Source of the DNA: Brachyhypopomus gauderio
Lineage: Eukaryota; Chordata; Actinopteri; Gymnotiformes; Hypopomidae
DNA length: 64,000 nucleotides
Direction of reading: 5' to 3'
NCBI RefSeq assembly: GCF_052324685.1
Contig: NC_135213.1
Span: 39,297,700-39,361,699, forward strand
The notes below the pieces were generated by a model. That model searched no databases and was not told the origin of the DNA. It saw nothing but the letters and a program-made list of their open reading frames with translations. A program made the translations under genes and the position numbers. Shown one piece after another: positions 1 to 58,500 of the stretch. The first letter of the stretch is position 1, and each line of letters begins with the position of its first letter.

Positions 1-236
1 AGCTTTTAACTAAGAATTATTTTAGACATAAGTCAATTCTTAGCAGCATTCTTAGGAGTAATTCTAAGAAGTTTGATAAATACGGGCCCAGACGTTTACA
101 GCTAGAATAGTCATTTACCACATTAATAATGTATAGAGTGTATTTTTGATGCATTTAATGTTAGCAAAATAAAAAAAAACTGCTTTTCTTTCAAAAATAA
201 CATTTCTAAGTGACCCCAAACTTTTGAACAGTAGTG
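1..236 (-). mobile_element. Right end of a Tc1-like (DD38E) element of the preceding unit
   Basis: Bases 1-88 are the end of the TIR insertion that sits inside this element in A and B. Bases 89-236 are its terminal part, ending in the inverted-repeat sequence ccaaacttttgaacagtagt. The same sequence closes the complete elements at 26245 and 53421. Its presence at the very start of the window shows that another copy of the unit lies to the left. Confidence 0.85.
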
Positions 237-269
237 TGTATATATATAATATCATAATGATTGTAACAT

Positions 270-600
270 GGTCAAGTCAAATTTATTTATATAGTGCTTT
301 TTACAACACATCACAAAGCAGCTTTACAATTGTATGGGTCCAGATCCCTAATGAGCGACAGAGGCAACAGTGGTGAGGAAAAACTCCCTATGATGGTGGG
401 GATTAGGAAGAAATCTCAGGAGGACCAAGACTCAAAAGGGAACCCATCCTCCATTGGGCGGCCCACTAGCATAAGTCTGTATTTATAATCCAAATATAGT
501 TCTATAGTTGCAGATGGTGAACCTCAGAGAGGAGTTGGCATCAGCGTGCCCTCTGTGGCAATGGTACATCCAAACAAAATGAAGTTCATAGAATGCGTTT
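270..600. repeat. Dispersed fish repeat (retroposon-type 3' tail), copy A1
   Basis: A block starting with tatttatatagtgcttttta and containing aggaaaaactccctatgatg and catcctccattgggcggccc. It occurs six times in the window: here, 15985-16300, 26290-26620, 42275-42590, 53470-53790, and outside the array at 59955-60205. The last copy proves it is dispersed rather than only part of the tandem unit. The start resembles the 3' tails of fish non-LTR retroposons, but I cannot name the family. Confidence 0.6.
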
Positions 601-1045
601 ATCATTATTATTATTATTATGAAATGCCATATTATTTATAATCTCTCTAGGGCACAGGTTCGTTTACTACACTTTCTGTAACGTACTAATCAGGCAGACA
701 AGGATCCAAGTGCGGATAATAGCTGTCTTTATTGAAACAATGATCACAGAGCTATCAAACAGGTGAGGGTGCCATCTAGTTGCAGCTCCATTGAATCCCC
801 TGTGGTTCTTTGGCCTAAAGAGAGAGAGGAGAAAAAGACAGGAGAAAATGATTATTATGAGTATTGATGTGATATAAATTTGAATTTGTTGCACATCCTT
901 GGTTGTTTTTTTTATACGTGTAATGAGTGTATACGTATCCAGTAAGTGTTCTCTTATACTGTGTATTCACCCACTATGGGATATGTATATGGGTAGACAA
1001 AACTGAGTTGTCATGTGTGAGGAGTAAACTCACATCACTCTGCAG

Positions 1046-1198
1046 GCACATTTTGAGGCAGACCAGTTCATCAGAACCAAACAGGGCAAGACTAGGCTGA
1101 GAGCAGATGCTGTTTGCACCATTTTTGTGCATCGCCCCGCACTCAGAAAGAGGAAGCCCCCTGCACAATACGAAATGACAGAAAGAAGAAACGGTTAA
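1046..1198 (+). pseudogene. THAP-domain exon (C-terminal half of the zinc finger), A1
   Basis: After a good acceptor (catcactctgcag) a frame of 50 codons runs to TAA. It starts AHFEADQF and contains ADAVCTIF, then a basic RKRKPP segment. THAP zinc fingers (C2CH, DNA binding) have a Cys-x2-His-Phe ending, a conserved Phe and an AVPTIF-like box in this order and spacing, so this should be the second half of a THAP domain. No exon with the first Cys-x-Cys half was found upstream in the window, so the gene is truncated or its first exon lies elsewhere. The Pro of AVPTIF is Cys here. The identical arrangement occurs at 16764, 27066, 43053 and 54240. Confidence 0.55.
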
Positions 1199-1460
1199 AA
1201 GATGGTCAGCTTGGAAGCAAGAGCCAATCCACAAAGGTGAAAAACAACTCCAGTAGCCGAGCTTCAAAATCCAACAACCCCCAAACAGCTCAAAATGTGC
1301 CATCAAGCCCATTAGACAGAAACATTTGGACTAATCATTACTCCTACAAGTAAATCTGCTTATTAAGAGGTGGATAATTCACTAAAATGCTTTAATTCAC
1401 ATTTTAATTTGATTCTGATGTCCTTATAATACACAATCAGATTTTTTAAGCGTACTAACC

Positions 1461-2639: not shown

Positions 2640-2671
2640 TGCTAAATTTCCTTCGGGATCAATAAAGTATG

Positions 2672-2743
<72 letters not shown>

Positions 2744-2745: not shown

Positions 2746-2749
2746 TGTA

Positions 2750-8911: not shown

Positions 8912-11215
8912 AATAATAATAAATAATAATAATCTTTATTTGTATAGCACCTTTCATACATACATGCAACTCAATGTGCTTTACAGTATAAATAAAAGAA
9001 ACATAAAAAGGAGAAGACAAAAAGGAAATGTTAGAAGAAATTAAAGTAAAATAACATAAAATGTAAAAAAGTAAAGTAAACAATATAATAAAAAAGTAAA
9101 GTAAATAAAACTAAAGTAAATATAAGAAGATAACAAAATATTAAAATTAAAGATAAAAAGAAATAATTAAATAAAGTGACAAATTATAAAAGAATAGACT
9201 AGAGTTTCTTAACTAAAAGCAGATCTAAACAGAAATGTTTTGAGACTGTTCTTGAAACTATTCAGGGATTAAATGCCTCTGAGCTCTTCAGGAAGAGAAT
9301 TCCAGAGCTTTGGGCCATAGTGTCTAAAAGCACCCTCGCCAATCTTTAATCGGCATCTAGGAATCACCAGTAGATTACTGTTTGAAGACCTCAGAGACCT
9401 GACTGGAACATATCTAACCATCATTTCACTGAGGTAAAGAGGGGCAAGACCATGAAGACATTTAAAAACCATGACTAGAACCTTAAAATCTATCCTAAAG
9501 CTGACAGGTAACCAGTGCAGTGAGTGGAGTGCAGGTGTAATATGATCTCTCTTTCACCTGTGGGTCAGAACCCTTGCAGCCGCATTCTGAACTCTCTGTA
9601 GGTGCGAAATAGAGCTCTTTGGAAGAGCAGACAGAACAGCGTTACAATAATCTAGCCTTGATGTGATAAATGCATGGACAAGTTTTTCACTGTCAGCAGG
9701 AGTGAGCATATCTCGGACCTTAGCAATGTTTCGAAGGTGAAAATAAGCTGTCTTGTATGTAGTCATGATGTGTGATTTGAAGCTGAGCTCATTATCAAAG
9801 GTGACGCCCAGGTTCTTAACACATTGTCTGGCATTCAGATTCATTTGATTTAAATATTTAAACATCATTTCTTTGTGAATCACTGCCAAGAACAAGAACT
9901 TCTGTCTTCTGTTTATTTAATTGCAGAAAATTGTCAGACATCCATGTCTGTATATCATCTATGCAGTCAAACAGTGAGCAAATTGATTTTAGGGCCTTAG
10001 GTTCTAGAGAAATGTAAAGTTGAGTGTCATCTGCATATTGATGATAACTAATACCATGTTTATTAATGATATGTGGTAACGGAAGCATATATAGGTTGAA
10101 TAGTAACGGCCCAAGAATTGATCCTTGGGGGACGCCACAAGTTATTTTTTGACGTGTGGAGGAAGAGGTACCTAATGCTACGTAGTAATCAAGCCCAGTT
10201 AGGTACGATCTAAACCAGTCTAAGACTAAGCCACTAAGGCCTACCCAGCTCTGTAGTCGATCAAGAAGAATTTCATGATCAACCGTGTCAAAAGCAGTGC
10301 TTAAATCCAGCAGAAAAAGGACTGAGAGTTTGCCTGCATCCGTATTCAATCTCAAGTCATTTACTACCTTAACTAGGGCTGTTTCAGTGCTGTGGAGAGC
10401 TCTGAAACCAGATTGAAAAGTGTCATTTATTTGATTTACTTTTACATAATCATTCAACTGGATTGACACAACTTTTTCAATGATTTTGCTAAGAAAGGAA
10501 AGGTTAGATATAGGTCGATAATTATTGAGAATTGTGGGATCAAGATTTCTGTTCTTTAATAGTGGTTTAACCGTTGCTGTTTTTAAAAAGTTAGGGAATT
10601 CACCCAATTGCAGAGACTGATTAACAATCGTTAGAACTTCATTTGCTAATGAGCTCAGAACCTGCTTGAAAAAGCATGTAGGTAAAGGGTCCAGTTCACA
10701 AGTAGAGGATTTTAGTGATGAGATCACATCAAGTAGTGTTGTCAACTTCTTGGAAATAAGACATATTAAAGTTAGGCTGAGTAACTGATATAAGGGTTGA
10801 TAGTCTATTAGTGCTTGTTGCTATGTTCTGCCTTATACTAGTAATCTTGTCCCTAAAAAATATTGCAAACTCATCACATTTTTCAACTGAAACAGTCTCA
10901 GGGAAGAAACAGGAGGTGGGGTTTACTAGCTGATCTATACTTCTGAACAAGACAGCCGAGTTATTATTTGATGAATTGATTAAGGTAGAGAAATAGTTTT
11001 TCCTTGCTGATTTCACTTCACTGTTGTAATTGTGCAATGTTGTTTTATAAATATCAAAATGTACTTGCAATTCTGACCTTCGCCAACGTCTCTCAGCCTG
11101 CCTACAATCTTGCCTAAATTTTACAATAGAAGGAGTGTAGATTAAACAGCGTGAATCTAATGTTATCAGACAAACTTGGGATACAAACTAAATCAATGAA
11201 AGTAAATCCAAAATA
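8912..11215 (-). mobile_element. L2/Rex1-type LINE, 5'-truncated and dead, copy A
   Basis: Antisense insertion in intron 7 of the unrecognised gene, with its 3' end only two bases from the donor of exon 7. Reverse transcriptase of the CR1/L2/Rex1 type is clear in 9858-10745: NNYRPISNLS, LLDLSTAFDTVDH, GVPQGSILGPLLFNLYM and the catalytic YHQYADDTQLY box. The upstream part is in 10729-11070, and the downstream parts in 9554-9895 and 9269-9472 (FRHYGPKLWNSLP). Two frameshifts (about 10735 and 9875) and an in-frame TGA at 9554-9556 break the frame. The endonuclease domain is missing. An adjacent (GT)n lies at 11252-11340. Confidence 0.85.
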
Positions 11216-11449: not shown

Positions 11450-12435
11450 ACTCCACCCTCTACACCCACTCCACCCTCTACACCCACTCCACCCTCTACA
11501 TCCCCTCCACCCTCTACATCCCCTCCACCCTCTACATCCCCTCCACCCTCTACACCCACTCCACCCTCTACATCCCCTCCACCCTCTACACCCACTCCAC
11601 CCTCTACACCCACTCCACCCTCTACACCCTCTACACCCCCTCCACCCTCTACACCCTCTACACCCTCTCCACCCTCTACACCCCCTCCACCCTCTACACC
11701 CCCTCCACCCTCTACACCCACTCCACCCTCTACATCCCCTCCACCCTCTACACCCACTCCACCCTCTACTTCCCCTCCACCCTCTACTTCCCCTCCACCC
11801 TCTACTTCCCCTCCACCCTCTACTTCCCCTCCACCCTCTACACCCACTCCACCCTCTACATCCCCTCCACCCTCTACATCCCCATCCACCCTCTACACCC
11901 ACTCCACCCTCTACATCCCCTCCACCCTCTACATCCCCTCCACCCTCTACACCCACTCCACCCTCTACACCCCCTCCACCCTCTACATCCCCTCCACCCT
12001 CTACACCCCCTCCACCATCTACACCCCCTCCACCCTCTACACCCCCTCCACCATCTACACCCACTCCACCATCTACACCCACTCCACCCTCTACATCCCC
12101 TCCACCCTCTACTTCCCCTCCACCCTCTACATCCTCTCCACCCTCTACACCCACTCCACCCTCTACACCCACTCCACCCTCTACATCCACTCCACCCTCT
12201 ACATCCCCTCCACCCTCTACACCCACTCCACCCTCTACACCCTCTCCACCCTCTACACCCACTCCACCCTCTACATCCCCTCCACCCTCTACATCCCCTC
12301 CACCCTCTACACCTTCTCCACCCTCTACATCCCCTCCACCCTCTACACCTTCTCCACCCTCTACACCCACTCCACCCTCTACACCCACTCCACCCTCTAC
12401 ACCTTCTCCACCCTCTACACCCTCTCCACCCCCGT
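11450..12435 (+). repeat. 18-bp coding minisatellite (Thr/Pro/Ser tract), copy A
   Basis: About 54 copies of an 18-bp unit, actccaccctctacaccc and variants (acatcc, acttcc), lying inside exon 8. In the gene frame it encodes TPPSTP/PPPSTS hexapeptides, a mucin-like, probably disordered and O-glycosylation-prone composition. A single-base insertion near 11884 (ccccatccacc for cccctccacc) switches the downstream half to a STLYTH/STLYIP frame. The unit has no stop in several frames of both strands, which is why long open frames appear on both strands here. It follows a Lys/Arg-rich segment of the gene. Confidence 0.9.
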
Positions 12436-17683: not shown

Positions 17684-17911
17684 TGTAAAAGTGTATCACA
17701 GATGGTCCACTGGTCCAGCTTGACTGCGCTGCTCGTATTTGCTGTAATCAAACGTGTCCGTTGGAGTGAACGGAGATGGCGCGACTCTCTCGCTATATGG
17801 TTCTGGTTCAGAGGGACTAGGCAGGGGACGAGGTCTAGGAGGAGAGCCGAGGTCGGTACACGGGGAAGGCAGTAACACGGAGAGACCGCTCGGTACGTGG
17901 CATGGCACCAA
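17684..17911 (-). other. Proline-rich exon-like segment, A2
   Basis: Block 2 version of 1461-1712. The Pro/Ser-rich frame is open here from an ATG at 17911 to TGA (17696-17698), about 71 codons. In copy B the same segment is broken by a hAT insertion at 44194-44978. No domain is recognisable. Confidence 0.25.
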
Positions 17912-18025
17912 TACTTCACAAGAAGAGTGAGGGGGAAGATTAAATAGTTGCGATGGGGAGGCGCGATGAGCGGCAGGTGAACCGCATCTACACGGAGATC
18001 AAGTGCGGTTCCTCACACTTTCACT

Positions 18026-18577
18026 TCAGTGCTTGAACCATTTTCGCCATATGCTCCTCCACCATCGTCCCAGAGTTCTCTTCTCAGAGCCCTCAGCTCT
18101 CTTTATCTTTTCATTCTCCTTCATATTTTGTCTAAGTTCTTCTACTTCACTCAGTCGTGCCTTTTCATTTTCCTGGTAGAAGAAGATCTCGTGCCTAAGC
18201 TTGATCTTCTCCAGCTCCTCCCTCGCTGTGTACTCGGCCAACCTTCTCATCTCCTTTATACACGCCTCCTCCATTAGCTTCCTCTCCTCTTCGATGACCC
18301 TCTTTTCATCCTCCAGTTCCTTAAGTCTGTTCTTCATTTGTTCTCTCTCTCTTGCCCACTCCTTTTCCATCTTCTTGTACTCACTGACCATCTCTTTGTT
18401 TTGTATTTTCTCTGTGTCTACTCGATCTGTGGCTTTCTTAATCTTGGATATCATATTATCAATTCTCCTGTTGAACATCTCCTCCTGTTCACTCAGCGTC
18501 TGTGTGTAATCCTTTGTTTGTTCCTCACTTCTTTTCAGAATTTCACTTTCCATCTCAGTCTGTATACTGCAGTCCAT
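18026..18577 (-). CDS. Coiled-coil protein, 183 aa, A2 (29-codon deletion)
   Basis: Paralog of 1803-2441. It has the same start and the same GRWWRSIWRKWF end, but lacks 29 codons (the GELEEELRRNK to KKDGKP segment, including the Lys/Arg-rich part). The deletion is 87 bp, so the frame is kept. There are several substitutions in the first third (NRRIDNMISKIKK region). Keeping the frame through an 87-bp deletion and many substitutions hints at coding constraint, but that needs a dN/dS test. The upstream region differs from block 1 beyond the TATA box. Confidence 0.55.
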   Translation of the reverse strand: MDCSIQTEMESEILKRSEEQTKDYTQTLSEQEEMFNRRIDNMISKIKKATDRVDTEKIQNKEMVSEYKKMEKEWAREREQMKNRLKELEDEKRVIEEERKLMEEACIKEMRRLAEYTAREELEKIKLRHEIFFYQENEKARLSEVEELRQNMKENEKIKRAEGSEKRTLGRWWRSIWRKWFKH

Positions 18578-18764
18578 CTTCTTTCTTATAACTCTCCACT
18601 GTCCACTACTGTATTAATTAGTTGTATGTTCAGCTGTGATGCTGTACAGTCTTTCCTTTTTCTCTACAAATATCACACTGGTGTCGACTGCCTTGACGTG
18701 CGGCCTTATATACGTTCGGTTATGTTGTGTTATGTCGTTACTATAGAAACGAGAAGGGTAACGC

Positions 18765-18945
18765 TGCAGGCCGGAGCCCCGGTGGGCGTGGGTAAAGGGC
18801 GGAGCATGTGTCAATCATTTTCGACTGCAGCCAATCAGATACTAGACTTTTGTTGTCAATCAATTTTCATTAAGCCAATTATCAGCCAGAGTTAGCTGTC
18901 AATCATTTTTTACTGCAGCCAATCATCTTAACAGATCTGCCAAAA
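18765..18945 (-). promoter_or_regulatory. Duplicated CCAAT-box cluster upstream of coiled-coil gene A2
   Basis: Two near-repeats of gtcaatcatttt followed by actgcagccaatca (about 18811 and 18897) give CCAAT boxes within 80-240 bp upstream of the TATA box of the minus-strand gene. The same cluster is at about 45845-46030 in copy B. Block 1 copies lack it, because there the sequence changes to a retroposon tail just upstream of the TATA box. Confidence 0.35.
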
Positions 18946-19022
18946 GAAGGCGGATACTGCACGGAGAATCTCTTTAAACAGAAGTATATGCCGCTCTTAC
19001 ACAAAAGTAGCTGAATAAAAAC

Positions 19023-19876
19023 TAGTGGTGGGCCGTTAACGGCATTAACGGCGGTCGTTAATTTGATACTCTTATCGGGCGATATAAAAATTATCGCCGT
19101 TAATCTATTCTTAAAGTTGGGTTGGGAACTGGGTCAAAATGGGTAAGCAAACTACGATGACTTTCAACTTGATAGTTGAGCTCGGCTGTATTCCTAACCA
19201 AATTGCACAGTAGGGGCGAGAACGAGTTTTCAAACCTGTGAATTACAAATCGTACGTGTGTTTACATGGATGCGGCCACAAAGTCGCCAGGTTTGCTTCA
19301 TGGAAAATTCATTTTTAGGAACGTAAAGTGTTACCGGAGCGGAGCTCGGAGCGGTCGTTTTCTGCATGGTCCTAGCGCTAGATTCGTCGCTATTTAAATA
19401 TTTATTTTTAACCGTTTAAAACTGCAGAGGACCAAAACCGGGTTTTGAAAAAAATTACGTAATTACAAATTACGTCCGTGAGGTTAAATGTACTAAATGT
19501 TGGCTTACATTTCAAATATCATGTTTAGCTGAATAAACATGTTATCAACCCCTTTTAATGTACAGTATGTAGGCTTACAAATTCATGTTTAACTGAATAA
19601 ACCGTTGAACACGAGTAGCCTACATTTTATTGAGCATGTTTTTTTTCTTCAAGTATCAAAGTAGAACAGCTTCCTCAAGCAGTCATTGATGCATTTTGGA
19701 AACAGGAGATGAGCCCCTGGTCTAACGCACCCCCTGTATTAAGAAATCCTATCTCAAAAACTGACTTTTAGTCATTACTTGCGTAGCACGCATATGAACC
19801 ATTTTAATATAGATTAATTTCAAGAATTAAGTGAGATTAATCTAGATTAAAAAAAATTAATCTATGCCCACCCCTA
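19023..19876. mobile_element. hAT-type non-autonomous element, copy A
   Basis: Starts TAGTGGTGGGC and ends GCCCACCCCTA, terminal inverted repeats of hAT form. It is flanked by an 8-bp near-duplication (ataaaaac at 19015, ataaaacc at 19877), the hAT target length. 854 bp, with no transposase frame inside. The copy B counterpart spans about 46105-46958. Confidence 0.65.
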
Positions 19877-20079
19877 ATAAAACCATTAGAAGAGCCATAA
19901 CTTTAGACATTTTTAAATCAAAGTTTAAAATACTTCTCACTTGTTATTCTGGAACGGCACTTTAATGTTTTTTTTTTCTTTTATTGCAAGTATTGCATCA
20001 TTTGACAATAAATGACAAAATTAAACAACAAACAGTATTAATACATATTTGAGTTATTTTGACAACAGAAGTTGACTTA

Positions 20080-21689
<1,610 letters not shown>

Positions 21690-21740
<51 letters not shown>
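21690..21740. repeat. (TA)n, copy A
   Basis: About 50 bp of alternating TA. It is about 115 bp in copy B (48776-48888). Tc1 elements insert at TA, so it may have grown from a target site. Confidence 0.85.
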
Positions 21741-21744
<4 letters not shown>

Positions 21745-21960
21745 GCGAGTGTAAATTGTTAGCGGGGGGGGGTGTAAATGGACACAAATTAAGTATTATA
21801 TCGCCTCCACCGAGCAGAGCGTTGAGGAGCGATTTCGATTGGAGGATCGTGCTCTCTGTCTGAGATTTTTTATTATTAATTTTTTGCTGATGCTGGTCCA
21901 GCGTGGCGCGTGCCAGTGATTATGCCTCGGCATGCCCACGTGCCATATGTTACCGAGCCC

Positions 21961-22490: not shown

Positions 22491-22493
22491 GTG

Positions 22494-24391: not shown

Positions 24392-24446
24392 TTTGTGAGT
24401 TTAATCGAACCAACAATTGTAATGCTCCAGATTCTCAACTAGCTTA

Positions 24447-37382: not shown

Positions 37383-40300
37383 GCTCTGATGAAGGGCAGG
37401 TTATAAGACTCGGTAGAAAGCTGAAAACTCCAACCAGAATTCAGCGAAAGAAGAAAAGGATCCAAAGCGAGAGGAACAACTACAGCCCAACTCCACCCTC
37501 TACACCCACTCCACCCTCTACATCCCCTCCACCCTCTACATCCCCTCCACCCTCTACACCCACTCCACCCTCTACACCCACTCCACCCTCTACATCCCCT
37601 CCACCCTCTACATCCCCTCCACCATCTACATCCCCTCCACCCTCTACACCCACTCCACCCTCTACATCCCCTCCACCCTCTACACCCACTCCACCCTCTA
37701 CACCCACTCCACCCTCTACATCCCCTCCACCCTCTACACCCACTCCACCCACTCCACCCTCTACACCCTCTACACCCCCTCCACCCTCTACACCCTCTAC
37801 ACCCTCTCCACCCTCTACACCCCCTCCACCCTCTACACCCCCTCCACCCTCTACACCCACTCCACCCTCTACATCCCCTCCACCCTCTACACCCACTCCA
37901 CCCTCTACATCCCCTCCACCCTCTACTTCCCCTCCACCCTCTACTTCCCCTCCACCCTCTACATCCCCTCCACCCTCTACACCCACTCCACCCTCTACAT
38001 CCCCTCCACCCTCTACACCCACTCCACCCTCTACATCCCCTCCACCCTCTACATCCCCATCCACCCTCTACACCCACTCCACCCTCTACATCCCCTCCAC
38101 CCTCTACACCCACTCCACCCTCTACACCCACTCCACCCTCTACACCCCCTCCACCCTCTACATCCCCTCCACCCTCTACACCCACTCCACCCTCTACACC
38201 CCCTCCACCCTCTACACCCACTCCACCCTCTACATCCCCTCCACCCTCTACTTCCCCTCCACCCTCTACTTCCCCTCCACCCTCTACATCCCCTCCACCC
38301 TCTACACCCTCTCCACCCTCTACACCCACTCCACCCTCTACACCCTCTCCACCCTCTACACCCCCTCCACCCTCTACACCCACTCCACCCTCTACATCCC
38401 CTCCACCCTCTACTTCCCCTCCACCCTCTACTTCCCCTCCACCCTCTACATCCCCTCCACCCTCTACACCCTCTCCACCCTCTACACCCACTCCACCCTC
38501 TACACCCTCTCCACCCTCTACATCCCCTCCACCCTCTACACCCACTCCACCCTCTACACCCACTCCACCCTCTACACCCACTCCACCCTCTACATCCCCT
38601 CCACCCTCTACACCTTCTCCACCCTCTACATCCCCTCCACCCTCTACACCTTCTCCACCCTCTACACCCACTCCACCCTCTACACCCACTCCACCCTCTA
38701 CACCTTCTCCACCCTCTACACCCTCTCCACCCCCGTCACCCTCTGCAGCTGTGAGACATCGCCCGTCTTACACAGGCACTAGAGAACAGGTATCTAGTGA
38801 CGTCTTTACTTTGGTCTCATTTTCCTGTTCATATTTAATAAATTTTAGTAATGTTGTGTGTGTGTGTGTGGTGGTTAGCCCGCACCCGCCTACAGCACGT
38901 AGTGTTAGGTAGACCCGCACCCGCCTTCAGCAGGTAGTGTTAGGTAGACCCGCACCCGCCTTCAGCAGGTAGTGTTAGATAGACCCGCACCTGCCTACAG
39001 CAGGTAGTGTTAGGTAGACCCGCACCCGCCTACAGCAGGTAGTGTTGGGTAGACCCGCACCCGCCTACAGCAGGTAGTGTTAGGTAGACACGCCTACAGC
39101 AGGTGGAGTTAGGGAGACCCACCTACAGTAGGAGGAGTTAGGGATCAGGTCACTCCCCCCAGCACACTGGCTTTCCTTTCTACGTGCCTTCTGAATAGCA
39201 TGTGACGTGAATACAGAGCCCTGTTCCCTAATGTGGGACGGGTCAGGACTTAAACTGGTGCTACACCATTCAAACACTTCAATCAGCACCTGTGTGTCAT
39301 AACCTGTGTATCATAAACAAGACATTACTCCCATATTCCTTGATAAACACAAGCTGAAACACTGAACCGTTTGCACTAAAACAATCTGCCACCAATTTAG
39401 CACCAGTATCTTCCCCAGCCACATCAACCCACCTGTCCTGACTCTGGTGTCTCCTGTGCTGGTGTGTATGACGTGAACAGAAGGCGGAGAGCACGACCAT
39501 GCTCCTAAATCAGAGCTTGAAACAGTCAGAGTGGGAGATCCGAGACCTGAGAGCAGTGCTTGCAGAGTCTGAGCGGGTCCACAAGGGGGCAGCAGGGAGG
39601 CAGGAGCAACAGAGCAGGAGCTGGGCTCAGGATATTCTCATGGAATGTGTGTGGCTACAGGAGCTGCTGACAGCCAATGGCATGCCTGCACACACCAAGC
39701 CCCTCCCACCCAGGTAAATATATACCTGTGTATGTGTGTTAATGACCATCCTTGTCTTTAACGTTGTAGTGAGAGTGTGCTAACCCTAACCTTGGCACTA
39801 CATTAGGTACACAAGCCATTATACCTACACTGAACACATTAGGCACGGCTCTTTTCTAAATGCCTTTCGTAAGTGTGTAAATACACAGTGCAGCTCATCA
39901 TTTGGTTTGCACTATATCACTTCTACCCTGTTCAAATGCTAAATGTAAATGTGCCATATTTTGTCAATTTTGATTTTTTTCACCGCAATCGAAATTTGTC
40001 CTCCTCTTTTAACCCATTTGTGCAGTTAGAACACACACACACACACACACTAGTGATTACTAGGGGGCTGTGGATCACACGTGCCCAGAGCGGTGGGCAG
40101 CCCTAGCCCAGCGCCCGGGGAGCAGTTGGGGTTAGGTGCCTTGCTCAAGGGTACCTCAGTCATGGCCTCAGGTCTGGGAATCGAACCCATGACCCTCCTG
40201 TCACAAGACCAGTTCCCTATCACAGGACCATGACTGCCCCTTAACCGTACAAGTCTTGTTTCTCTGCTCTTGCCGTCACTTGCCGCCCTAGTAATCACTA

Positions 40301-44978: not shown

Positions 44979-45107
44979 GTGGCATGGCACCAATACTTCA
45001 CAAGAAGAGTGAGGGGGAAGATTAAATAGTTGCGATGGGGAGGCGCGATGAGCGGCAGGTGAACCGCATCTACACGGAGATCAAGTGCGGTTCCTCACAC
45101 TTTCACT

Positions 45108-45659
45108 TCAGTGCTTGAACCATTTTCGCCATATGCTCCTCCACCATCGTCCCAGAGTTCTCTTCTCAGAGCCCTCAGCTCTCTTTATCTTTTCATTCTC
45201 CTTCATATTTTGTCTAAGTTCTTGTACTTCACTCAGTCGTGCCTTTTCATTTTCCTGGTAGAAGAAGATCTCGTGCCTAAGCTTGATCTTCTCCAGCTCC
45301 TCCCTCGCTGTGTACTCGGCCAACCTTCTCATCTCCTTTATACACGCCTCCTCCATTAGCTTCCTCTCCTCTTCGATGACCTTCTTTTCATCCTCCAGTT
45401 CCTTAAGTCTGTTCTTCATTTGTTCTCTCTCTCTTGCCCACTCCTTTTCCATCTTCTTGTACTCACTGACCATCTCTTTGTTTTGTATTTTCTCTGTGTC
45501 TACTCGATCTGTGGCTTTCTTAATCTTGGATATCATATTATCAATTCTCCTGTTGAACATCTCCTCCTGTTCACTCAGCGTCTGTGTGTAATCCTTTGTT
45601 TGTTCCTCACTTCTTTTCAGAATTTCACTTTCCATCTCAGTCTGTATACTGCAGTCCAT
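45108..45659 (-). CDS. Coiled-coil protein, 183 aa, B2
   Basis: Copy B counterpart of 18026-18577, with the same 29-codon deletion and only two visible residue changes (EKKVIEE, SEVQELR). A TATA box lies at about 45785-45793. Confidence 0.55.
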   Translation of the reverse strand: MDCSIQTEMESEILKRSEEQTKDYTQTLSEQEEMFNRRIDNMISKIKKATDRVDTEKIQNKEMVSEYKKMEKEWAREREQMKNRLKELEDEKKVIEEERKLMEEACIKEMRRLAEYTAREELEKIKLRHEIFFYQENEKARLSEVQELRQNMKENEKIKRAEGSEKRTLGRWWRSIWRKWFKH

Positions 45660-45844
45660 CTTCTTTCTTATAACTCTCCACTGTCCACTACTGTGTTAAT
45701 TAGTTGTATGTTCAGCTGTGATGCTGTACAGTCTTTCCTTTTTCTCTACAAATATCACACTGGTGTCGACTGCCTTGACGTGCGGCCTTATATACGTTCG
45801 GTTATGTTGTGTTATGTCGTTACTATAGAAACGAGAAGGGTAAC

Positions 45845-46030
45845 GCTGCAGGCCGGAGCCCCGGTGGGCGTGGGTAAAGGGCGGAGCATGTGTCAATCAT
45901 TTTCGACTGCAGCCAATCAGATACTAGACTTTTGTTGTCAATCAATTTTCATTAAGCCAATTATCAGCCAGAGTTAGCTGTCAATCATTTTTTACTGCAG
46001 CCAATCATCTTAACAGATCTGCCAAAAGAA
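45845..46030 (-). promoter_or_regulatory. Duplicated CCAAT-box cluster upstream of coiled-coil gene B2
   Basis: Copy B counterpart of 18765-18945. Confidence 0.35.
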
Positions 46031-46104
46031 GGCTGATACTGCACGGAGAATCTCTTTAAACAGAAGTATATGCCGCTCTTACACAAAAGTAGCTGAATAA
46101 AAAC

Positions 46105-46958
46105 TAGTGGTGGGCCGTTAACGGCATTAACGGCGGTCGTTAATTTGATACTCTTATCGGGCGATATAAAAATTATCGCCGTTAATCTATTCTTAAAGTT
46201 GGGTTGGGAACTGGGTCAAAATGGGTAAGCAAACTACGATGACTTTCAACTTGATAGTTGAGCTCGGCTGTATTCCTAACCAAATTGCACAGTAGGGGCG
46301 AGAACGAGTTTTCAAACCTGTGAATTACAAATCGTACGTGTGTTTACATGGATGCGGCCACAAAGTCGCCAGGTTTGCTTCATGGAAAATTCATTTTTAG
46401 GAACGTAAAGTGTTACCGGAGCGGAGCTCGGAGCGGTCGTTTTCTGCATGGTCCTAGCGCTAGATTCGTCGCTATTTAAATATTTATTTTTAACCGTTTA
46501 AAACTGCAGAGGACCAAAACCGGCTTTTGAAAAAAATTACGTAATTACAAATTACGTCCGTGAGGTTAAATGTACTAAATGTTGGCTTACATTTCAAATA
46601 TCATGTTTAGCTGAATAAACATGTTATCAACCCCTTTTAATGTACAGTATGTAGGCTTACAAATTCATGTTTAACTGAATAAACCGTTGAACACGAGTAG
46701 CCTACATTTTATTGAGCATGTTTTTTTTCTTCAAGTATCAAAGTAGAACAGCTTCCTCAAGCAGTCATTGATGCATTTTGGAAACAGGAGATGAGCCCCT
46801 GGTCTAACGCACCCCCTGTATTAAGAAATCCTATCTCAAAAACTGACTTTTAGTCATTACTTGGGTAGCACGCATATGAACCATTTTAATATAGATTAAT
46901 TTCAAGAATTAAGTGAGATTAATCTAGATTTAAAAAAATTAATCTATGCCCACCCCTA
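46105..46958. mobile_element. hAT-type non-autonomous element, copy B
   Basis: Counterpart of 19023-19876, near identical. Confidence 0.65.
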
Positions 46959-47161
46959 ATAAAACCATTAGAAGAGCCATAACTTTAGACATTTTTAAAT
47001 CAAAGTTTAAAATACTTCTCACTTGTTATTCTGGAACGGCACTTTAATGTTTTTTTTTTCTTTTATTGCAAGTATTGCATCATTTGACAATAAATGACAA
47101 AATTAAACAACAAACAGTATTAATACATATTTGAGTTATTTTGACAACAGAAGTTGACTTA

Positions 47162-48891
<1,730 letters not shown>

Positions 48892-49136
48892 GCGAGTGTA
48901 AATTGTTAGCGGGGGGGGGGGGGGGTGTAAATGGACACAAATTAAGTATTATATCGCGATCGATCGCCAAGTATAAACGCCTCCACCGAGCAGAGCGTTG
49001 AGGAGCGATTTCGATTGGAGGATCGTGCTCTCTGTCTGAGATTTTTTATTATTAATTTTTTGCTGATGCTGGTCCAGCGTGGCGCGTGCCAGTGATTATG
49101 CCTCGGCATGCCCACGTGCCATATGTTACCGAGCCC

Positions 49137-49666
49137 TGATGATGGAGAGGATGCGTAATCTCTTCATGCTGATGAAATAACATGAAATGTTCCAGTTTTA
49201 ATCCACCAACACTATCACTGTTACAGGTGGGTTAAAAGCGGAGCACAAATTTCGATTGCGGTGTAAAAAATCACAATTGACAAAATATGGCACATTTACA
49301 TTTTATTTACAAATGTTTGCCAACTGTGATGAGCTAAAATTACTAGCACATCCTTCTGACTTTTGTTTTACAGGAAGCGTGCGGCTACAGGAGTCGATTT
49401 TGATGATGGAGATGATGCGTAATCTCTTCATGCTGATGAAATAACATGAAATGTTCCAGTTTTAATCCACCAACACTATCACTGTTACTAATGGGTATTT
49501 TTAAATTCATAATATTAACAATACAAATGGTTTTTAAATCTCTATGGAACTATTGTAATGAATTATGAAGGTCGTATGATTTTAGGAATGGCATTTCTGA
49601 AATAAATATTCTATTTTAATTTCCTAAAAGAGTGATTTGTTTTGTTATGTATAAAATTTAAAACGA
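49137..49666 (+). pseudogene. Duplicated 3' end of the unrecognised gene, copy B
   Basis: Counterpart of 21961-22490 (last exon at 49374-49422). About 23 bp present near 48955 in B are missing from copy A, between short cg repeats. Confidence 0.75.
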
Positions 49667-49669
49667 GTG

Positions 49670-50308
49670 TGTTGTGTTCTATAGAGTTCTAATTAGATCC
49701 TCCACTAGGAGGCACTGTGTACTGTGTAAGAGAGGAAGGCAGAGGAGAAGAAGGAGTGCCGTGTGCTCAGTAAAGTACGGCTGTGTTCGAAATAGCCTAC
49801 TACATACTACTGGCGTACTGATCCAGCCCCAAATCAGTATGCAGTATGTGACCAAAATGAAAATTTTCAGTACGCGAAACATACCCGGATGACCTACTAC
49901 TTCCGCAAAATATTCCAGTACGCGAACAGAGCTATCTTCGTGGTGTACTGCATCCCATCATGCAACGCTACGTTCACGTAACCCCGTAGTATGCTTTGCT
50001 TTTGTCGCATACTGGAAACTGTACTGCATACTACTACGAGGACCAGTATGCAGTATCCAGTATATACTGAGTCCAGTATGCAGTATCCAGTATGTAGTAG
50101 TCTATTTCGAACAAAGCCTACGTGTGTATTTAATCTGTACGGCTGTGTTGCTTCTTACTTTCATTTAACAACCTAACAAATTGGCAAAGAGGATGGCCGT
50201 TTCCCTACCGCCACCATTCCTCCAGTGTCCTGGCGAATCGACGCTTTCGTTCAGTACGTGGCTGCAAATGTTTGAGGGGAATGTTGAGAATGACTTGGAG
50301 TTATATTG
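49670..50308 (+). mobile_element. Gypsy-type LTR and start of gag, copy B
   Basis: Counterpart of 22494-23132. Confidence 0.6.
49780..50118. mobile_element. MITE inside the Gypsy LTR, copy B
   Basis: Counterpart of 22604-22942. Confidence 0.65.
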
Positions 50309-50526
50309 AGTTATATTGTGTTGTTTAAGTGTTCCCTTTATTTTTTTGAGCAGTATATATATACACTACCGTTCAAAAGTTTGGGGTCACCTAGACAATT
50401 TTGTGTTTTGCCCTGAAATCTCATACTTTTATTTATCAAATGAGTTGCAAAATGAATAGAAATATAGTCCAGACATTGACAAGGTAGAAATAACGTTTTT
50501 TTTTTTATTTGAAATAATTTTCTACT

Positions 50527-51567
50527 TTAAACTTTGCTTTCGTCAAAGAATGCTCCCTTAGCAGCAATTACAGCATTGCAGACCTTTGGCATTCTAGCTG
50601 TTAATTTGCTGAGGTAATCTGGATAAATTTCACCCCATGCTTCCAGAAGCCGCTCCCACAAGTTTGATTGGGTTAATGGGCACTTTTTTTGTACCATACG
50701 GTCAAGATGCTCCCACAACAGCTCAATAGGGTTGAGATCTGGTGACTGCGCTGGCCACTCTATTACCGATAAAACACCAGCTGCCTGCTTCTTCTCTAAA
50801 TAGTTTGTGCATAATTTGGAGGTGTGCTTTGGGTCATTGTCCTGTTGCAGGATGAAATTGGCTCCAATCAAGCGCTGTCCACAGGGTATGGCATGGTGTT
50901 GCAAAATGGAGTGATAGCCTTCCTTATTCAAAATCCCTTTTACCTTGTACAAATCTCCCACTTTACTAGCACCAAAGCAACCCCAGACCATCACATTACC
51001 TCCACCATGTTTGACAGATGGTGTCAGGCACTCATCCAGCATCTTTTCAGTTGTTCTGCGTCTCACAAATGTCCGTCTGTGTGATCCAAACACCTCAAAC
51101 TTTGATTCGTCTGTCCATAACACTTTTTTCCAATCTTCCTCTGTCCAATGTCTGTGTTCTTTTGCCCATATTAATATTTTTCTTTTATTAGCCAGTCTCA
51201 GATATGGCTTTTTCTTTGCCACTCTGCCCTGAAGGCCAGCATCCCGGAGTCGCCTCTTCACTGTAGATGTTGACACTGGCATTTTGCGGGTACTATTTAA
51301 TGAAGCTGCCAGATGAGGACCTGTGAGGCGTTGATTTCTCAAACCTGAGACTCTAATGTTGTCTTCTTGCTCAGTTGTGCAGCGGGGCCTTCCACTTCTC
51401 CTTCTACTCTGGTTAGAGCCTGTCTGTGCTCTCCTCTGAAGGGAGTAGTACACACCATTGTAGGAAATCTTCAGTTTCTTGGCAATGTCTCGCATGGAAT
51501 AGCCTTCATTTCTCAGAACAAGAATAGACTGTCGAGTTTCAATTGAAAGTTGTCTTTTTCTGGCCAT
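50527..51567 (-). CDS. Tc1-like transposase (DD38E), 346 aa, copy B
   Basis: Protein identical to copy A, with all catalytic residues present. Confidence 0.92.
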   Translation of the reverse strand: MARKRQLSIETRQSILVLRNEGYSMRDIAKKLKISYNGVYYSLQRRAQTGSNQSRRRSGRPRCTTEQEDNIRVSGLRNQRLTGPHLAASLNSTRKMPVSTSTVKRRLRDAGLQGRVAKKKPYLRLANKRKILIWAKEHRHWTEEDWKKVLWTDESKFEVFGSHRRTFVRRRTTEKMLDECLTPSVKHGGGNVMVWGCFGASKVGDLYKVKGILNKEGYHSILQHHAIPCGQRLIGANFILQQDNDPKHTSKLCTNYLEKKQAAGVLSVIEWPAQSPDLNPIELLWEHLDRMVQKKCPLTQSNLWERLLEAWGEIYPDYLSKLTARMPKVCNAVIAAKGAFFDESKV

Positions 51568-51622
51568 TTTGTGAGTTTAATCGAACCAACAATTGTAATG
51601 CTCCAGATTCTCAACTAGCTTA

Positions 51623-52149
51623 GGGCGTACTCACACTAGGCACGGTTTGCTGGTTCCGTGCTGGGGCCCGGTTATCCCCCCTCCCCACTCCCCCTCTGGC
51701 CTGCACTCACACTGGCTTCAGCAACCCGGCCCGAGCACGCTTACGTCATCACAACGCCGCTTTATTTGGAAAAAAAGCGCGCTCGCACAACACTATGGAG
51801 TTCACGATTCTCTTTTTATTGTATTTTTGGAGTCGTTTTGGGAGTGCAGAAACACGGTGCAAGCACAGATTTATCGATAATTTAACACAACGATTGTCTG
51901 CTAATCGCTTTGCCGCTATGACTGTTTAACGTGAGCATCGCATCACTGACGTCATGTTTGAGTTCCAGCGAAATGAACCAATCAGACGAGGCACCAAGCG
52001 GGCCCGGGCACGGATAGCGCTCACACTAGAAGCGAACCGTGCCCGAGTCCACATGAATCGTGCCCTGGCCCACCTCTTCAAGCGGGCCCGAGCACGGTTA
52101 ACTGATCCGTGCCCGGGCCCGGATCACAGAGCCTAGTGTGAGTACGCCC
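51623..52149. mobile_element. Harbinger-type MITE in the DD38E element, copy B
   Basis: Counterpart of 24447-24973, with the same TTA flanks. Confidence 0.8.
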
Positions 52150-52359
52150 TTAAAGGAAGGTCAGTTTTATAGCTTCTCTAATCAGCAAAACTGTTTTCAG
52201 CTGTGCTAACCTACTTGCACAAGGGTTTTCAAGGGTTTTCTAAATATCCAATAGCCTCCTTACAGAGTTAGCAAACACAATGTACCATTAGAACACTGGA
52301 GTGATGGTTATTGGAAATGGGTCTCCATACATCTATGTAGATATTGCATTAACAACCAG

Positions 52360-53274
52360 GGCCCGTATTTATCAAACTTCTTAGAGTGGAATTTTGGACT
52401 AAAGTGCTGAAAAATTCTTAGATTTGCTCCTACTCACAGAGTTAAGTGTAAGTGCCAGTTATCAAAACTCTCAAGTATAAGAATCACTCTTACTCTCCCG
52501 AAAAGTTAAGACTGCTCCAGAGGACTCATAAGTTGTTAAGAGTTGCCACTAGGGGGCTGAGATGGCACTGAGAAGACAGAGACGCGTGCGAACCTTCACA
52601 CATTTCAATTTTATAGATATATAAATATGCACATAAATATGCACAATGCACAAATATGCACAATAATTAGGCATTAGGATAAGCATGGGATTAAATTTTT
52701 TTGTTCTTCCTTTCATTTTTTTTCGTGCAAGATTGTAATATTCATGCTGCGATTTTAATACTTTAATTTTAAGCTTTGACGTCTGCCTTGTCAGTTCTTG
52801 TATGTCATTTGGGAGTGAGTCCTCTGCCTTCAGACGCCCACTCTTCCTCCGGCCATGGAGGTGTTTGGAAGCGCTGTCAGAGAGGGAGGGGCAGATGGAG
52901 AATCTGCGCTCAAGCCAGCAGGGTCGGGAGCACCAGCAGCTTCTTTATTACTGACGGATGCAATAATTTTGAAGTGATTTTACACTTAACTCTGTGAGTA
53001 GGAGCAAATCTAAGAATTTTTCAGCACTTAAGTCCAAAATTCCACTCTAAGAAGTTTGAAAAATACAGGCCCAGCTTTGCGGCACAGCCAGGTGTCGTAA
53101 ATCAGCTCTTAGACTGACACTTAAGAATTGCTCCTACACTTCGCTTAAAGTGAGACTGAGAGGCTTGATAACTAACCTTTAGTCTCAGCTTTTAACTAAG
53201 AATTATTTTAGACATAAGTCAATTCTTAGCAGCATTCTTAGGAGTAATTCTAAGAAGTTTGATAAATACGGGCC
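52360..53274. mobile_element. TIR element with nested inverted ends, copy B
   Basis: Counterpart of 25184-26098, same length (915 bp) and same CAG flanks. Confidence 0.6.
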
Positions 53275-53469
53275 CAGACGTTTACAGCTAGAATAGTCAT
53301 TTACCACATTAATAATGTATAGAGTGTATTTTTGATGCATTTAATGTTAGCAAAATAAAAAAAACTGCTTTTCTTTCAAAAATAACATTTCTAAGTGACC
53401 CCAAACTTTTGAACAGTAGTGTGTATATATATATATATATATAATATCATAATGATTGTAACATGGTCA

Positions 53470-53790
53470 AGTCAAATTTATTTATATAGTGCTTTTTACA
53501 ACACATCACAAAGCAGCTTTACAATTGTATGGGTCCAGATCCCTAATGAGCGACAGAGGCAACAGTGGTGAGGAAAAACTCCCTATGATGGTGGGGATTA
53601 GGAAGAAATCTCGGGAGGACCAAGACTCAAAAGGGAACCCATCCTCCATTGGGCGGCCCACTAGCATAAGTCTGTATTTATAATCCAAATATAGTTCTAT
53701 AGTTGCAGATGGTGAACCTCAGAGAGGAGTTGGCATCAGCGTGCCCTCTGTGGCAATGGTACATCCAAACAAAATGAAGTTCATAGAATG
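53470..53790. repeat. Dispersed fish repeat, copy C1
   Basis: Counterpart of 270-600 in copy C. Confidence 0.55.
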
Positions 53791-54239
53791 CGTTTATCAT
53801 TATTATTATTATTATGAAATGCCATATTATTTATAATCTCTCTAGGGCACAGGTTCGTTTACTACACTTTCTGTAACGTACTAATCAGGCAGACAAGGAT
53901 CCAAGTGCGGATAATAGCTGTCTTTATTGAAACAATGATCACAGAGCTATCAAACAGGTGAGGGTGCCATCTAGTTGCAGCTCCATTGAATCCCCTGTGG
54001 TTCTTTGGCCTAAAGAGAGAGAGGAGAAAAAGACAGGAGAAAATGATTATTATGAGTATTGATGTGATATGAATTTGAATTTGTTGCACATCCTTGGTTG
54101 TTTTTTTATACGTGTAATGAGTGTATACGTATCCAGTAAGTGTTCTCTTATACTGTGTATTCACCCACTATGGGATATGTATATGGGTAGACAAAACTGA
54201 GTTGTCATGTGTGAGGAGTAAACTCACATCACTCTGCAG

Positions 54240-54392
54240 GCACATTTTGAGGCAGACCAGTTCATCAGAACCAAACAGGGCAAGACTAGGCTGAGAGCAG
54301 ATGCTGTTTGCACCATTTTTGTGCATCGCCCCGCACTCAGAAAGAGGAAGCCCCCTGCACAATACGAAATGACAGAAAGAAGAAACGGTTAA
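54240..54392 (+). pseudogene. THAP-domain exon, C1
   Basis: Copy C counterpart of 1046-1198, with the same frame and stop. Confidence 0.55.
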
Positions 54393-55008
54393 AAGATGGT
54401 CAGCTTGGAAGCAAGAGCCAATCCACAAAGGTGAAAAACAACTCCAGTAGCCGAGCTTCAAAATCCAACAACCCCCAAACAGCTCAAAATGTGCCATCAA
54501 GCCCATTAGACAGAAACATTTGGACTAATCATTACTCCTACAAGTAAATCTGCTTATTAAGAGGTGGATAATTCACTAAAATGCTTTAATTCACATTTTA
54601 ACGCACATGTTAATTTGATTCTGATGTCCTTATAATACACAATCAGATTTTTTAAGCGTACTAACCTGTAAAAGTGTATCACAGATGGTCCACTGGTCCA
54701 GCTTGACTGCGCTGCTCGTATTTGCTGTAATCAAACGGGTTCGTTGGAGTGAACGGAGATGGCGCGACTCTCTCGCTATATGGTTCTGGTTCAGAGGGAC
54801 TAGGCAAGGGACGAGGTCTAGGAGGAGATCAGAGGTCGGTACACGGGGAAAGCAGTAAGACGGAGAGACCGCTCGATACGTGGCATGGCACCAATACTTC
54901 ACAAGAAGAGTGAGGGGGAAGATTAAATAGTTGCGATGGGGAGGCGCGATGAGCGGCAGGTGAACCGCATCTACACGGAGATCATGTGCGGTTCCTCACA
55001 CTTTCACT

Positions 55009-55647
55009 TCAGTGCTTGAACCATTTTCGCCATATGCTCCTCCACCATCGTCCCAGAGTTCTCTTCTCAGAGCCCTCAGGTTTTCCGTCTTTCTTCACAA
55101 ACGCTCTAGCCACCATTTGCTTCAGGCGGCATGAAGCCTTATTCCTTCTCAACTCTTCTTCTAGCTCCCCCTTTATCTTTTCATTCTCCTTCATCTTTTG
55201 TCTAAGTTCTTCTACTTCACTCAGTCGTGCCTTTTCGTTTTCCTGGTAGAAGAAGATCTCGTGCCTAAGCTTGATCTTCTCCAGCTCCTCCCTCGCTGTG
55301 TACTCGGCCAACCTTCTCGTCTCCTTTATACACTCCTCCTCCATTAGCTTCCTCTCCTCTTCAACCACCCTCTTTTCATCCTCCAGTTCCTTAAGTCTGT
55401 TCTTCATTTCTTCTCTCTCTCTTGCCCACTCCTTTTCCATCTTCTTGTACTCACTGACCATCTCTCTGTTTTTTATCATCTCTGTTTCTACTTGATCTGT
55501 GGCTTTATTAATCCTGGATATCATATTTTCAATTGTCATCTTGAACATCTCCTCCTGTTCACTCAGCGTCTGTGTGTAATCCTTTGTTTGTTCCTCACTT
55601 CTTTTCAGAATTTCACTTTCCATCTCAGTCTGTATACTGCAGTCCAT
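55009..55647 (-). CDS. Coiled-coil protein, 212 aa, C1
   Basis: Copy C counterpart of 1803-2441, open from ATG to TGA, nearly identical to B1. A TATA box lies at about 55775-55783. Confidence 0.6.
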   Translation of the reverse strand: MDCSIQTEMESEILKRSEEQTKDYTQTLSEQEEMFKMTIENMISRINKATDQVETEMIKNREMVSEYKKMEKEWAREREEMKNRLKELEDEKRVVEEERKLMEEECIKETRRLAEYTAREELEKIKLRHEIFFYQENEKARLSEVEELRQKMKENEKIKGELEEELRRNKASCRLKQMVARAFVKKDGKPEGSEKRTLGRWWRSIWRKWFKH

Positions 55648-56452
55648 CTTCTTTCTTATAACTCTCCACTGTCCACTACTGTATTAATTAGTTGTATGTT
55701 CAGCTGTGATGCTGTACAGTCTTTCCTTTTTCTCAACAAATATCACACTGGTGTCGACTGCCTTGACGTGCGGCCTTATATACGTTCGGTTATGTTGTGT
55801 TATGTCGTTACTATAGAAACGGAATTCTACTACTTACCAACGTTATGCTAAATTTCCTTCGGGATCAATAAAGTATGTATCTATCTATCTATCTATCGAT
55901 GTATTGTGACGTCATTTCGATTAATCAATTCATAACATCTAAGTAAACAAAAACATACTGTGGTTATACAAAAAATATATATATATTACTTTATTCAGTA
56001 ATAGTTATTCCTTTTTAATAATAAGTTCATTATTATACATTTATTTTTTTTAAGAAAAAAATTTAAAAATATGCAGAAGTACCACAATAAACCGCAGCAT
56101 GAATGAATTTACATTTGAGACTGTTCGTATCTACTGCCATTTTAATTTGGGCAAATTAATTCTACTTTAAATAATACATTGAAATAAAGGAGTAATGAGA
56201 TGGAATTGAATGAATTACATTAGAAAAGGAGCACCCTGGCAGCAAAGTAGATACCTGTCACGTTTTTTATTTAAAAATAAGGAAAATTTTCCGCTGGTCG
56301 CTGCGATCATTCCCTCCAGCCCAATCAAGGTCCAGGACCCCTTATATTTTACACGACGTCTTCACTTTTTTGATAGAAACACCTTCTCTCTCGTTACATT
56401 CATCCATCTCTGATTAGTTTTTCGGGTTTGTTGTTCCCGCTGTCAGCGCTAA

Positions 56453-56502
56453 TCTCGCGAGAACTGACACTCGGGCTACTGCAGGTTGCCATTCTCGCGA
56501 GA
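56453..56502. promoter_or_regulatory. Two TCTCGCGAGA palindromes, C1
   Basis: Both palindromes are intact (56453-56462 and 56493-56502). Confidence 0.5.
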
Positions 56503-57951
56503 CTAGCGACATAGTTCAGTTTGGAGAGGCGCTTGAATGCTTTTAAGATTTATACTAGGTATGCTGACGAACCAACGTTCGATGCGAAAAATTCTGGCTC
56601 AGTAATGTGTTCCAAACTACGTTGTACTTTTGTAAAGGTGTCATATAACATCACTCCTCACCGCCTAGCAGGTGTATGTTTTTTCCTGAATACTACTGTG
56701 ACTTCGTCAAGCACAACCCAGCCAATCATCAGGCACTATTTATAGTCAACTCTGAGGCGATTTCAGGTCGGGAGACCAGCGAGAAGATACTTTGTTGTTT
56801 TCAAGCGGTCTGTTTTCTTCATCAACGCTCCGGACACCATCGAAATATATGTGGACCTAAAAATACAGCTTTTATCTCAATACTGACCAAATTTAATCGA
56901 AATCCGTGCAGGCGAAAGTATTTTACTAGACCGCGGAAAATAAGTAGTCATGATTGACATTGGCGTATCGAACGTCACGGTAGCGCAACTTTAGGCTAAA
57001 AGCGGCGTCTCGGTTTAACTCGTTCCCACAGTGTTTTCTTGAAATCGGTACTGATACCAGTGTTGTGTAGTTTAATCTCATTGTTTTCTGATATAACTTG
57101 TTGTTAAATGGTAATATAGTTAACATCACTTCGAATTAGATTATGATTATGATTAATTGTTAATTATGATTAATTAGAATTAGATTATGTGAATTTCAGT
57201 CACACGACTTCTATTGTAATTAATGTATTATATTTTAATGTGATACATGATATTATAAATATCATAACTTTATCAATTCTCAACCAATTTTCAAAATCCA
57301 GGTATCATTTTAAAGGTATATTTCAGCTCTGTCTAGATATGTGATTCTTTTAAAGCTTGAGGCTGTTTGAAAATTTTGTCATCATACCTATATATACTAT
57401 ATTACAATACGGGAATTTACGGGAAAATATTAATACGGGAGGACATCGGGAAAGAGGGGTAAAATATGGTAGTAGTTTCCCAGCCAAAACGGGAGAGTTG
57501 ACAGGTATGCTCTATGCCAGGGGTGGGCAACCTTTGAGACATGGAGTGTAATGAGTGTGTGGCACTATCAGCAAATAAAATTGGAGCGGGGGGGGGGGGG
57601 GGTAGCGAGTGTAAATTGTTAGGGGAGTGGAGGTGTAAATGGACACAAATTAAGTATTATATCACGATCGATCGCCAAGTATATGCACACAAAGACAGGA
57701 CTGAAACGAGTCTTGATCACATGGGTGGACAAGTCAAGCCTCATCTGACAATGTGAAATATGGGAAATCTGATCTATAATGTGTGTTCACAAATGTGAGA
57801 AATGTTTGATTATGCACCAGTGAACTGAAGCCATTTGAATGTCTAGCATTACCTGAACCGCTCCATGTGTCTTCAGTTCAACTTCTTTTCAGGGTGTGTT
57901 GGGTCTGCAGGACTGATGGTTGCTAAGATCCTGCGGCGCGTGCGTCTGTGA

Positions 57952-58021
57952 ATGTCAAGCGATGTGTGCAGCTCAGTCCATCAGTCCCGCAGCAGGGTTG
58001 AGATCCAGACCCAAACCAACT
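57952..58021 (+). CDS. Unrecognised multi-exon gene, exon 1 only, copy C
   Basis: Exon 1 (ATG at 57952, donor after 58021: aac t/gtgagt), identical in frame to A and B. Exon 2 would lie beyond the gap at 58501. Partial only because of the assembly. Confidence 0.55.
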
Positions 58022-58500
58022 GTGAGTATACGTGCTTCTTGATTCGTTAGGTCAAACAAAACGAAAGATGATTTGATCATTGGTGTGTTTACACGATGCT
58101 CTAATGTGATAAAGGACGTTATAAACGACGCGCAAGCAGCTCTTAAACATGCACGTTCGCCTTTATTATATCCACTTTCATTTAGTTGGTAAACGTTTAG
58201 CTTCAAGAAGCAGCATAGTACTAACACGATACAGTGCGTAACTCTTAAGACATTTTGGTGGATACACATGTGGGACTGGAATGTGTGAGCCTTTATTTCC
58301 CACCAGACCGGACCGCGTTTACTGGCGGGTCCCAGTTTGTTCCCCGGGCAACAGGCCACCAACAGTCGCTCCAGCTCTCCAAACGTGTGTTTCAGCATAA
58401 CAAACGAGCTAAAACCGAATAAAACATGAATGAACGACCCTTTAATTAGTTTGAAAATGATACATTCACTACACTACAGTTTGTTGGGTAAAAGTTATAT

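Follow-up and report, generated by a model that had tools for sequence, protein, structure and literature searches.

A 64,000-nucleotide stretch of the Brachyhypopomus gauderio genome (the window; positions 39297700–39361699 of contig C3) is filled, from its left edge to a 500-N gap, by head-to-tail copies of a large repeat unit. How far does this tandem array extend, which genes does it carry, and is epc2, which the assembly places beyond the gap, its true neighbour? Searches of the genome assembly (796,539,105 bases in 840 contigs) indicate that the window probably shows a section of a single 13-unit tandem array, approximately 374 kb long, which has been cut at the gap and beside whose cut end epc2 has been joined. 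Every unit contains, on the minus strand, one or two genes for a coiled-coil protein, each intact and in a single exon; there are 13 copies of a long form (L) and 10 of a short form (S). An earlier note on this DNA, made from the window, was correct in its observation yet understated it.

Extent of the array

On C3, unit sequence begins at position 39164795 and, interrupted by foreign insertions, extends up to the 500-N gap, which opens at 39356200; C3:39130001–39356199 contains not a single N. Contig C48 (1,811,549 bp) carries the array in reverse, from approximately 1,628,948 to its very last base. The array, described in the earlier note as open at both ends, accordingly starts 133 kb to the left of the window and continues, in phase, onto C48. 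The suspicion of more copies than are visible was also well founded, with 13 units marked by the L gene, of which seven are on C3 and six on C48 (all 133 candidates scored). The S gene is present in six copies on C3 and four on C48, three units being without it, and the order of L and S is regular across the join of the two contigs. A 1001-bp marker, u4000–5000 (u denotes the unit coordinate, with u1 at window position 26011), gives at least seven copies on C3 and at least six on C48 among the best 40 of 1525 candidates scored; eight of these places match the whole query, and five match about 785 of its bases.

The phase of the two contig ends was determined by aligning to the C3 region the 949 bp that precede the gap and the 949 bp with which reversed C48 opens. 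The end of the C3 part and the start of reversed C48 are consecutive to the base in six of six reference units (for example, 39329027/39329028), with the join at u5318/u5319. The chance of unrelated ends meeting in this way is estimated, from the unit length, at approximately 1 in 27,000. The two outer edges of the array have nearly the same phase, at u14083–14272 on C3 and u13930 on C48. A 2201-bp piece of the left flank has no full-length match but itself, the other 34 matches being short pieces; 2300 bp of the C48 flank have no second full copy, the remaining matches being two short pieces on C38 (76–79% identity). Five further pieces of C48 have no match over 200 bp in C3:39130001–39390000. 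Because the flanks lack a second full copy and these pieces are unmatched, C48 is unlikely to be a haplotig or other allele of this locus, or, as far as sequence was fetched, of either C3 flank.

We infer that a single molecule would join C3 and C48. The assembly would have split the array at the 500-N gap, within the seventh L-bearing unit, and left the remainder on C48. The assembly effect considered in the earlier note thus appears real at the right end, where C48 resumes the array to the base, but as a cut and not as a false duplication. The locus resembles known misassemblies of tandem repeats in that the break keeps the exact phase of the array and is marked by N gaps of fixed size, and differs from them in that the absent part can be named, as C48.

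Relationships between units

Self-alignment of the window confirms the three collinear, head-to-tail copies noted earlier: unit A (1–26010), unit B (26011–53186) and unit C (53187–58500). Positions 21690–31328 and 48837–58500 are 99.58% identical over 9668 columns (8 mismatches), and positions 17897–21741 and 44979–48823 are 99.8% identical. Over u1–5318, which A, B and C have in common, B and C differ by 5 substitutions, compared with 22 between A and B and 21 between A and C. At 24 sites two units agree against the third, joining B and C at 19, A and B at 2, and A and C at 3. A short TATC run and small indels are likewise common to B and C and absent from A. The earlier note was right on the closeness of B and C, with 5 differences in 5.3 kb, and on the recent exchange between them that it offered as one reading. 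The unit copies are homogenised inside the array, B and C differing by 5 substitutions against 21–22 with A.

Elsewhere in the array, units carry different insertions, and S has been lost from some of them. Substitutions between units amount to 0.25–1.3% over u4425–7300 (eight units compared). Units A, B, U3 and the C48 unit at 1786k form one group of similar units (2.5–5.2 mismatches per kb), and U1, U2 and the C48 unit at 1647k form another (2.8–5.5 mismatches per kb).

Unequal crossing-over is the likely mechanism of the array. Such crossing-over among units, and between blocks I and II, would add or remove copies, and gene dose would change with copy number. On C3, a recombinant unit (39197889–39202378) passes from block II to block I with loss of S. 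Vertebrate amylase and immune gene clusters are tandem families that change by unequal crossing-over. The present array is like such families in its head-to-tail complete genes, recombinant unit, similar neighbours and gene losses; it differs in that its gene belongs to no searched family and in that its large units are full of mobile elements.

The coiled-coil genes

The L gene encodes 212 amino acids and the S gene, through an 87-bp in-frame deletion, 183. The frame is open from ATG to TGA, with no internal stop, in all 13 L and S copies on C3, and the 10 copies on C48 are stop-free within the matched stretch. The copy at C3:39168436 has a TAG in the stretch preceding its ATG. What the earlier note took for two blocks of a coiled-coil gene are, from the open frames and the alignment of L with S, two complete genes per unit. 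L and S have common flanks of 173 bp before the ATG, including the TATA-like sequence GTATATAAGG, and at least approximately 120 bp after the stop; because of this common 5′ and 3′ sequence, the predicted gene looks complete in one exon.

In A, B and C, the L gene has a CRE-like TGACGTCA upstream (at 2753 in A). The TATC run occupies 2668–2743 in A, and the corresponding insertion lies at 28674–28707 in B and 55848–55881 in C, where the run is short. The insertion site is empty at 39202214, 39248022 and 39271534; this TATC-tailed insertion, cleanly present or absent among units, provides a natural empty-site comparison.

AlphaFold2, supplied with eight near-identical sequences, predicts a helix of residues 2–184 and a second of residues 195–210, with a mean predicted local distance difference test (pLDDT) score of 88.5 and a predicted template modelling (pTM) score of 0.37. 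Residues 186–196 score below 50, and the tail helix is moderately confident (65 or less in the blocks from residue 191). No other 16-residue window of the protein has a helical moment as high as that of the tail, RTLGRWWRSIWRKWFK; 3 of 5000 shuffles reach this value, and the charge of the tail is +6. The model suggests a coiled-coil rod that may be bound to a membrane through this amphipathic C-terminal helix.

Divergence between L and S on C3 is 0.9% before the gene and 0.6% after it; the figure rises to 4.6% within the coding part and reaches 14.5% across codons 36–61. The fixed codon differences are amino-acid-changing in nine of nine cases in codons 36–61 and in 13 of 15 cases in the whole coding part, and three of them adjoin the 87-bp deletion. 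This patch is at most suggestive of diversifying selection or of import from another copy.

A genome-wide family

Searching the genome with the coil protein gives 111 matched stretches, which correspond to 79 main places and one split copy on C2. Twenty-three places are in the array, one is on C13 (a 96% relative) and 56 are elsewhere. Among the 55 main places elsewhere, 51 are stop-free in the matched stretch and four contain a stop (two on C13, one on C11 and one on C14). The family is clustered on C5, C2, C17, C139 and C8, and forms pairs on C9. The C13 relative (23927144–23929971) is a solitary L copy with part of its upstream sequence and 96% protein identity, possibly a source or an offshoot. 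The four-copy cluster on C139, with 10-kb spacing, is very similar to the C8 cluster. In the region C8:23860567–23892249, the only ORC4_C match in the genome (E-value 9.5e-9) lies approximately 6 kb from the three-copy coil cluster on C8.

A DNA search with the 200 bp 5′ of the ATG (best 40 of 93 candidates) gives at least 24 matches within the array and at the C13 relative, and at least 16 at other loci, with 89–95% identity. All 16 of these other loci sit 5′ of coil places with 60–85% protein identity; DNA and protein identities are different scales, but the contrast is still large. No weighty match to the coil protein was detected in Pfam, NCBIfam, PHROGs or the PDB sequences, the best E-values being 0.029 (under the cut-off), 0.088 and 0.028 (under the cut-off), with none at 0.01 in one search. 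No relatives were confirmed in IMG/VR. Nothing on the family was seen in a literature search covering titles and the starts of abstracts, which is no proof of absence. Tentatively, these proteins may form an undescribed, intronless coiled-coil family of approximately 80 members that repeatedly builds its own arrays, with a 5′ region under much tighter conservation than the protein and a probably membrane-binding tail, under diversifying selection in a conflict such as immunity; this composite picture is possible rather than probable.

Flanking genes

To the right of the 500-N gap lies a piece of exactly 5000 bp with the presumed first coding exon of epc2 (at 61023), then 5000 N, and then an exon with the E_Pc_C domain, which we take to belong to epc2. 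Frames in the left C3 flank resemble what are presumably PNPLA6/7 (cNMP_binding, E-value 0.001, under the cut-off), and frames in the C48 flank resemble what we assume to be RABL6. In human, PNPLA6/7 and RABL6 are both located at 9q34.3 and EPC2 at 2q23. A literature search for PNPLA6/7 and RABL6 as a pair found nothing in titles and the starts of abstracts. Given the phase continuation on C48, the phases of the outer edges and the pairing of the flank genes under these presumed names, epc2 is unlikely to be the real neighbour of the array. A pnpla6/7-like gene would instead flank the array on one side and a rabl6-like gene on the other, and the locus may lie close to a chromosome end. The earlier note proposed flanking epc2 as a reference for read depth: it is usable as a single-copy control, but is probably not a true flank.

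The ORC4 synteny marker lies on C8 instead of C3 or C48, a position that speaks neither for nor against the join. An MBD-domain search for mbd5, meant to probe the neighbourhood of epc2, returned 15 rows, none on C3 or C8. The first 5000 positions of C48 are 2500 N and then 2500 bp of which CCCTAA makes up 98.9%, oriented as at a chromosome end. CCCTAA-type repeats are common in the assembly and are also found inside C3 and C6; genome-wide, the telomere pattern has 16076 forward and 23978 reverse matches, and C48 is not singled out among the matches listed.

Alternative explanations

C48 could derive from a second haplotype or a separate array that was fused within the repeats and then rightly cut, with the C3 array continuing toward epc2. 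A chimeric contig, once cut, would give the same exact phase, and the C48 unit at 1647k resembles U1 and U2, at the opposite end of the C3 part, with 4.8–5.5 mismatches per kb; the C48 unit at 1786k, however, groups with A, B and U3, the outer edges of the array are nearly equal in phase, and both the C48 flank and the five unmatched pieces lack counterparts, so we consider this explanation unlikely. Less credible still is false duplication, in which the assembler would have generated the extra units by placing haplotype copies in series. B and C, with 5 substitutions in 5.3 kb, are so alike that their sequence leaves room for it in this pair, but the absence of N inside the array on C3 speaks against it, as do the insertions, S losses and divergence that distinguish the units. 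Several points weigh against a single array cut at the gap and against the processes proposed for it. Assemblers can fuse two arrays within near-identical repeats, and a scaffolder may then cut correctly; the join of C3 and C48 is drawn from assembled sequence; and the RABL6-like frames match nothing in Pfam. Crossover mapping had only eight diagnostic sites, and a non-recombinant S copy showed the same pattern. Over 16 copies, the ratio of nonsynonymous to synonymous polymorphism (pN/pS) comes to 0.58 within the L group, 1.23 within the S group and 0.76 for L compared with S, and selection on the coil inside the array is apparently weak or mixed, with no strong constraint. One array continuing from C3 onto C48 is still the explanation that we prefer.

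For the gene itself, the coil might be the terminal exon of a GTPase gene of the GIMAP (AIG1) type, an identity that we regard as extremely improbable. GIMAP genes of fish occur in arrays, and their products can have a coiled coil at the end; the likeness extends to the large arrays in this same genome, whereas the coil places have no nearby GTPase domain among the matches listed: none of the 150 AIG1 places listed (from 260 candidates) is within 0.7 Mb of a coil place, and the P-loop pattern has two matches in 260 kb of C3, neither less than 7 kb from a coil gene. The coil gene also has its own predicted TATA-like promoter and a complete frame. GIMAP identity was rejected on the location of the domains listed. 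The AIG1/GIMAP repertoire of this genome is itself very large, with at least 150 places, all above the Pfam cut-off, on C7, C6, C34, C87, C114 and other contigs.

Other features of the window

The features of the window are listed in Table 1. The earlier note assigned the unit a complete unrecognised gene and left its frame unspecified; one candidate, the 349-residue frame of unit A, is indeed open throughout, but is recognisable as a Tc1-like transposase. The 18-bp minisatellite is strongly strand-biased (C over G), and its length differs between A and B, which makes it a possible unit marker.

Table 1 Features of the window, with positions counted from its first nucleotide.
Feature	Position	Strand	Basis and other copies
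Array on C3, right-hand end	1–58500	.	Self-alignment and C3 unit map; C cut by gap
Coiled-coil gene L, unit A, 212 residues	1803–2441	-	Open frame, stop included
Short insertion ending in TATC run, unit A	2642–2743	+	Upstream sequences of 13 copies; between L promoter and CRE-like motif
Non-LTR-like element, reverse-transcriptase frames, unit A	9557–11187	-	RVT_1, E-value 3.2e-36 for 9861–10820; unit B 35597–37119
18-bp minisatellite, unit A	11451–12431	.	Tandem Repeats Finder, 54.4 copies; unit B 37491–38732, 69.4 copies
Coiled-coil gene S, unit A, 183 residues, 87-bp in-frame deletion	18026–18577	-	Open frame, stop included
Tc1-like transposase, two separate frames, unit A	20250–21355	-	DDE_3 and HTH_Tnp_Tc3_2 for 20250–20843; unit B 47332–48437
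Tc1-like transposase, single open frame, 349 residues, unit A	23354–24400	-	HTH_Tnp_Tc3_2 and DDE_3; unit B 50530–51576
Coiled-coil gene L, unit B	27835–28473	-	Open frame and alignment with S, stop included
Conserved 5′ region of L, unit B	28474–28673	-	TATA-like GTATATAAGG at 28600–28610; A 2442–2641, C 55648–55847
Coiled-coil gene S, unit B	45108–45659	-	Open frame and alignment with L, stop included
Conserved 5′ region of S, unit B	45660–45832	-	Block alignment; TATA-like at 45786–45796; A 18578–18750
Coiled-coil gene L, unit C	55009–55647	-	Open frame, stop included
N gap, 500 N	58501–59000	.	Exact-phase continuation of the array on reversed C48, descending from 1811549
epc2-like first coding exon (name presumed)	61023–61190	+	Reading frame; outside the array

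Significance

The structure of the array is of a known kind; new here are the likely scaffolding error and an uncharacterised, fast-changing gene family. The array is sized at 13 units with 23 open genes, against the three copies visible in the window, and the probable scaffolding error would mislead synteny or dosage studies of the locus. The analysis also brings out a large coiled-coil family with no match in any library searched, clustered on several chromosomes, whose 5′ 200 bp are more strongly conserved than its protein. Most of the difference between L and S consists of amino-acid changes in a single short patch, and rapid selection can thereby be put to the test.

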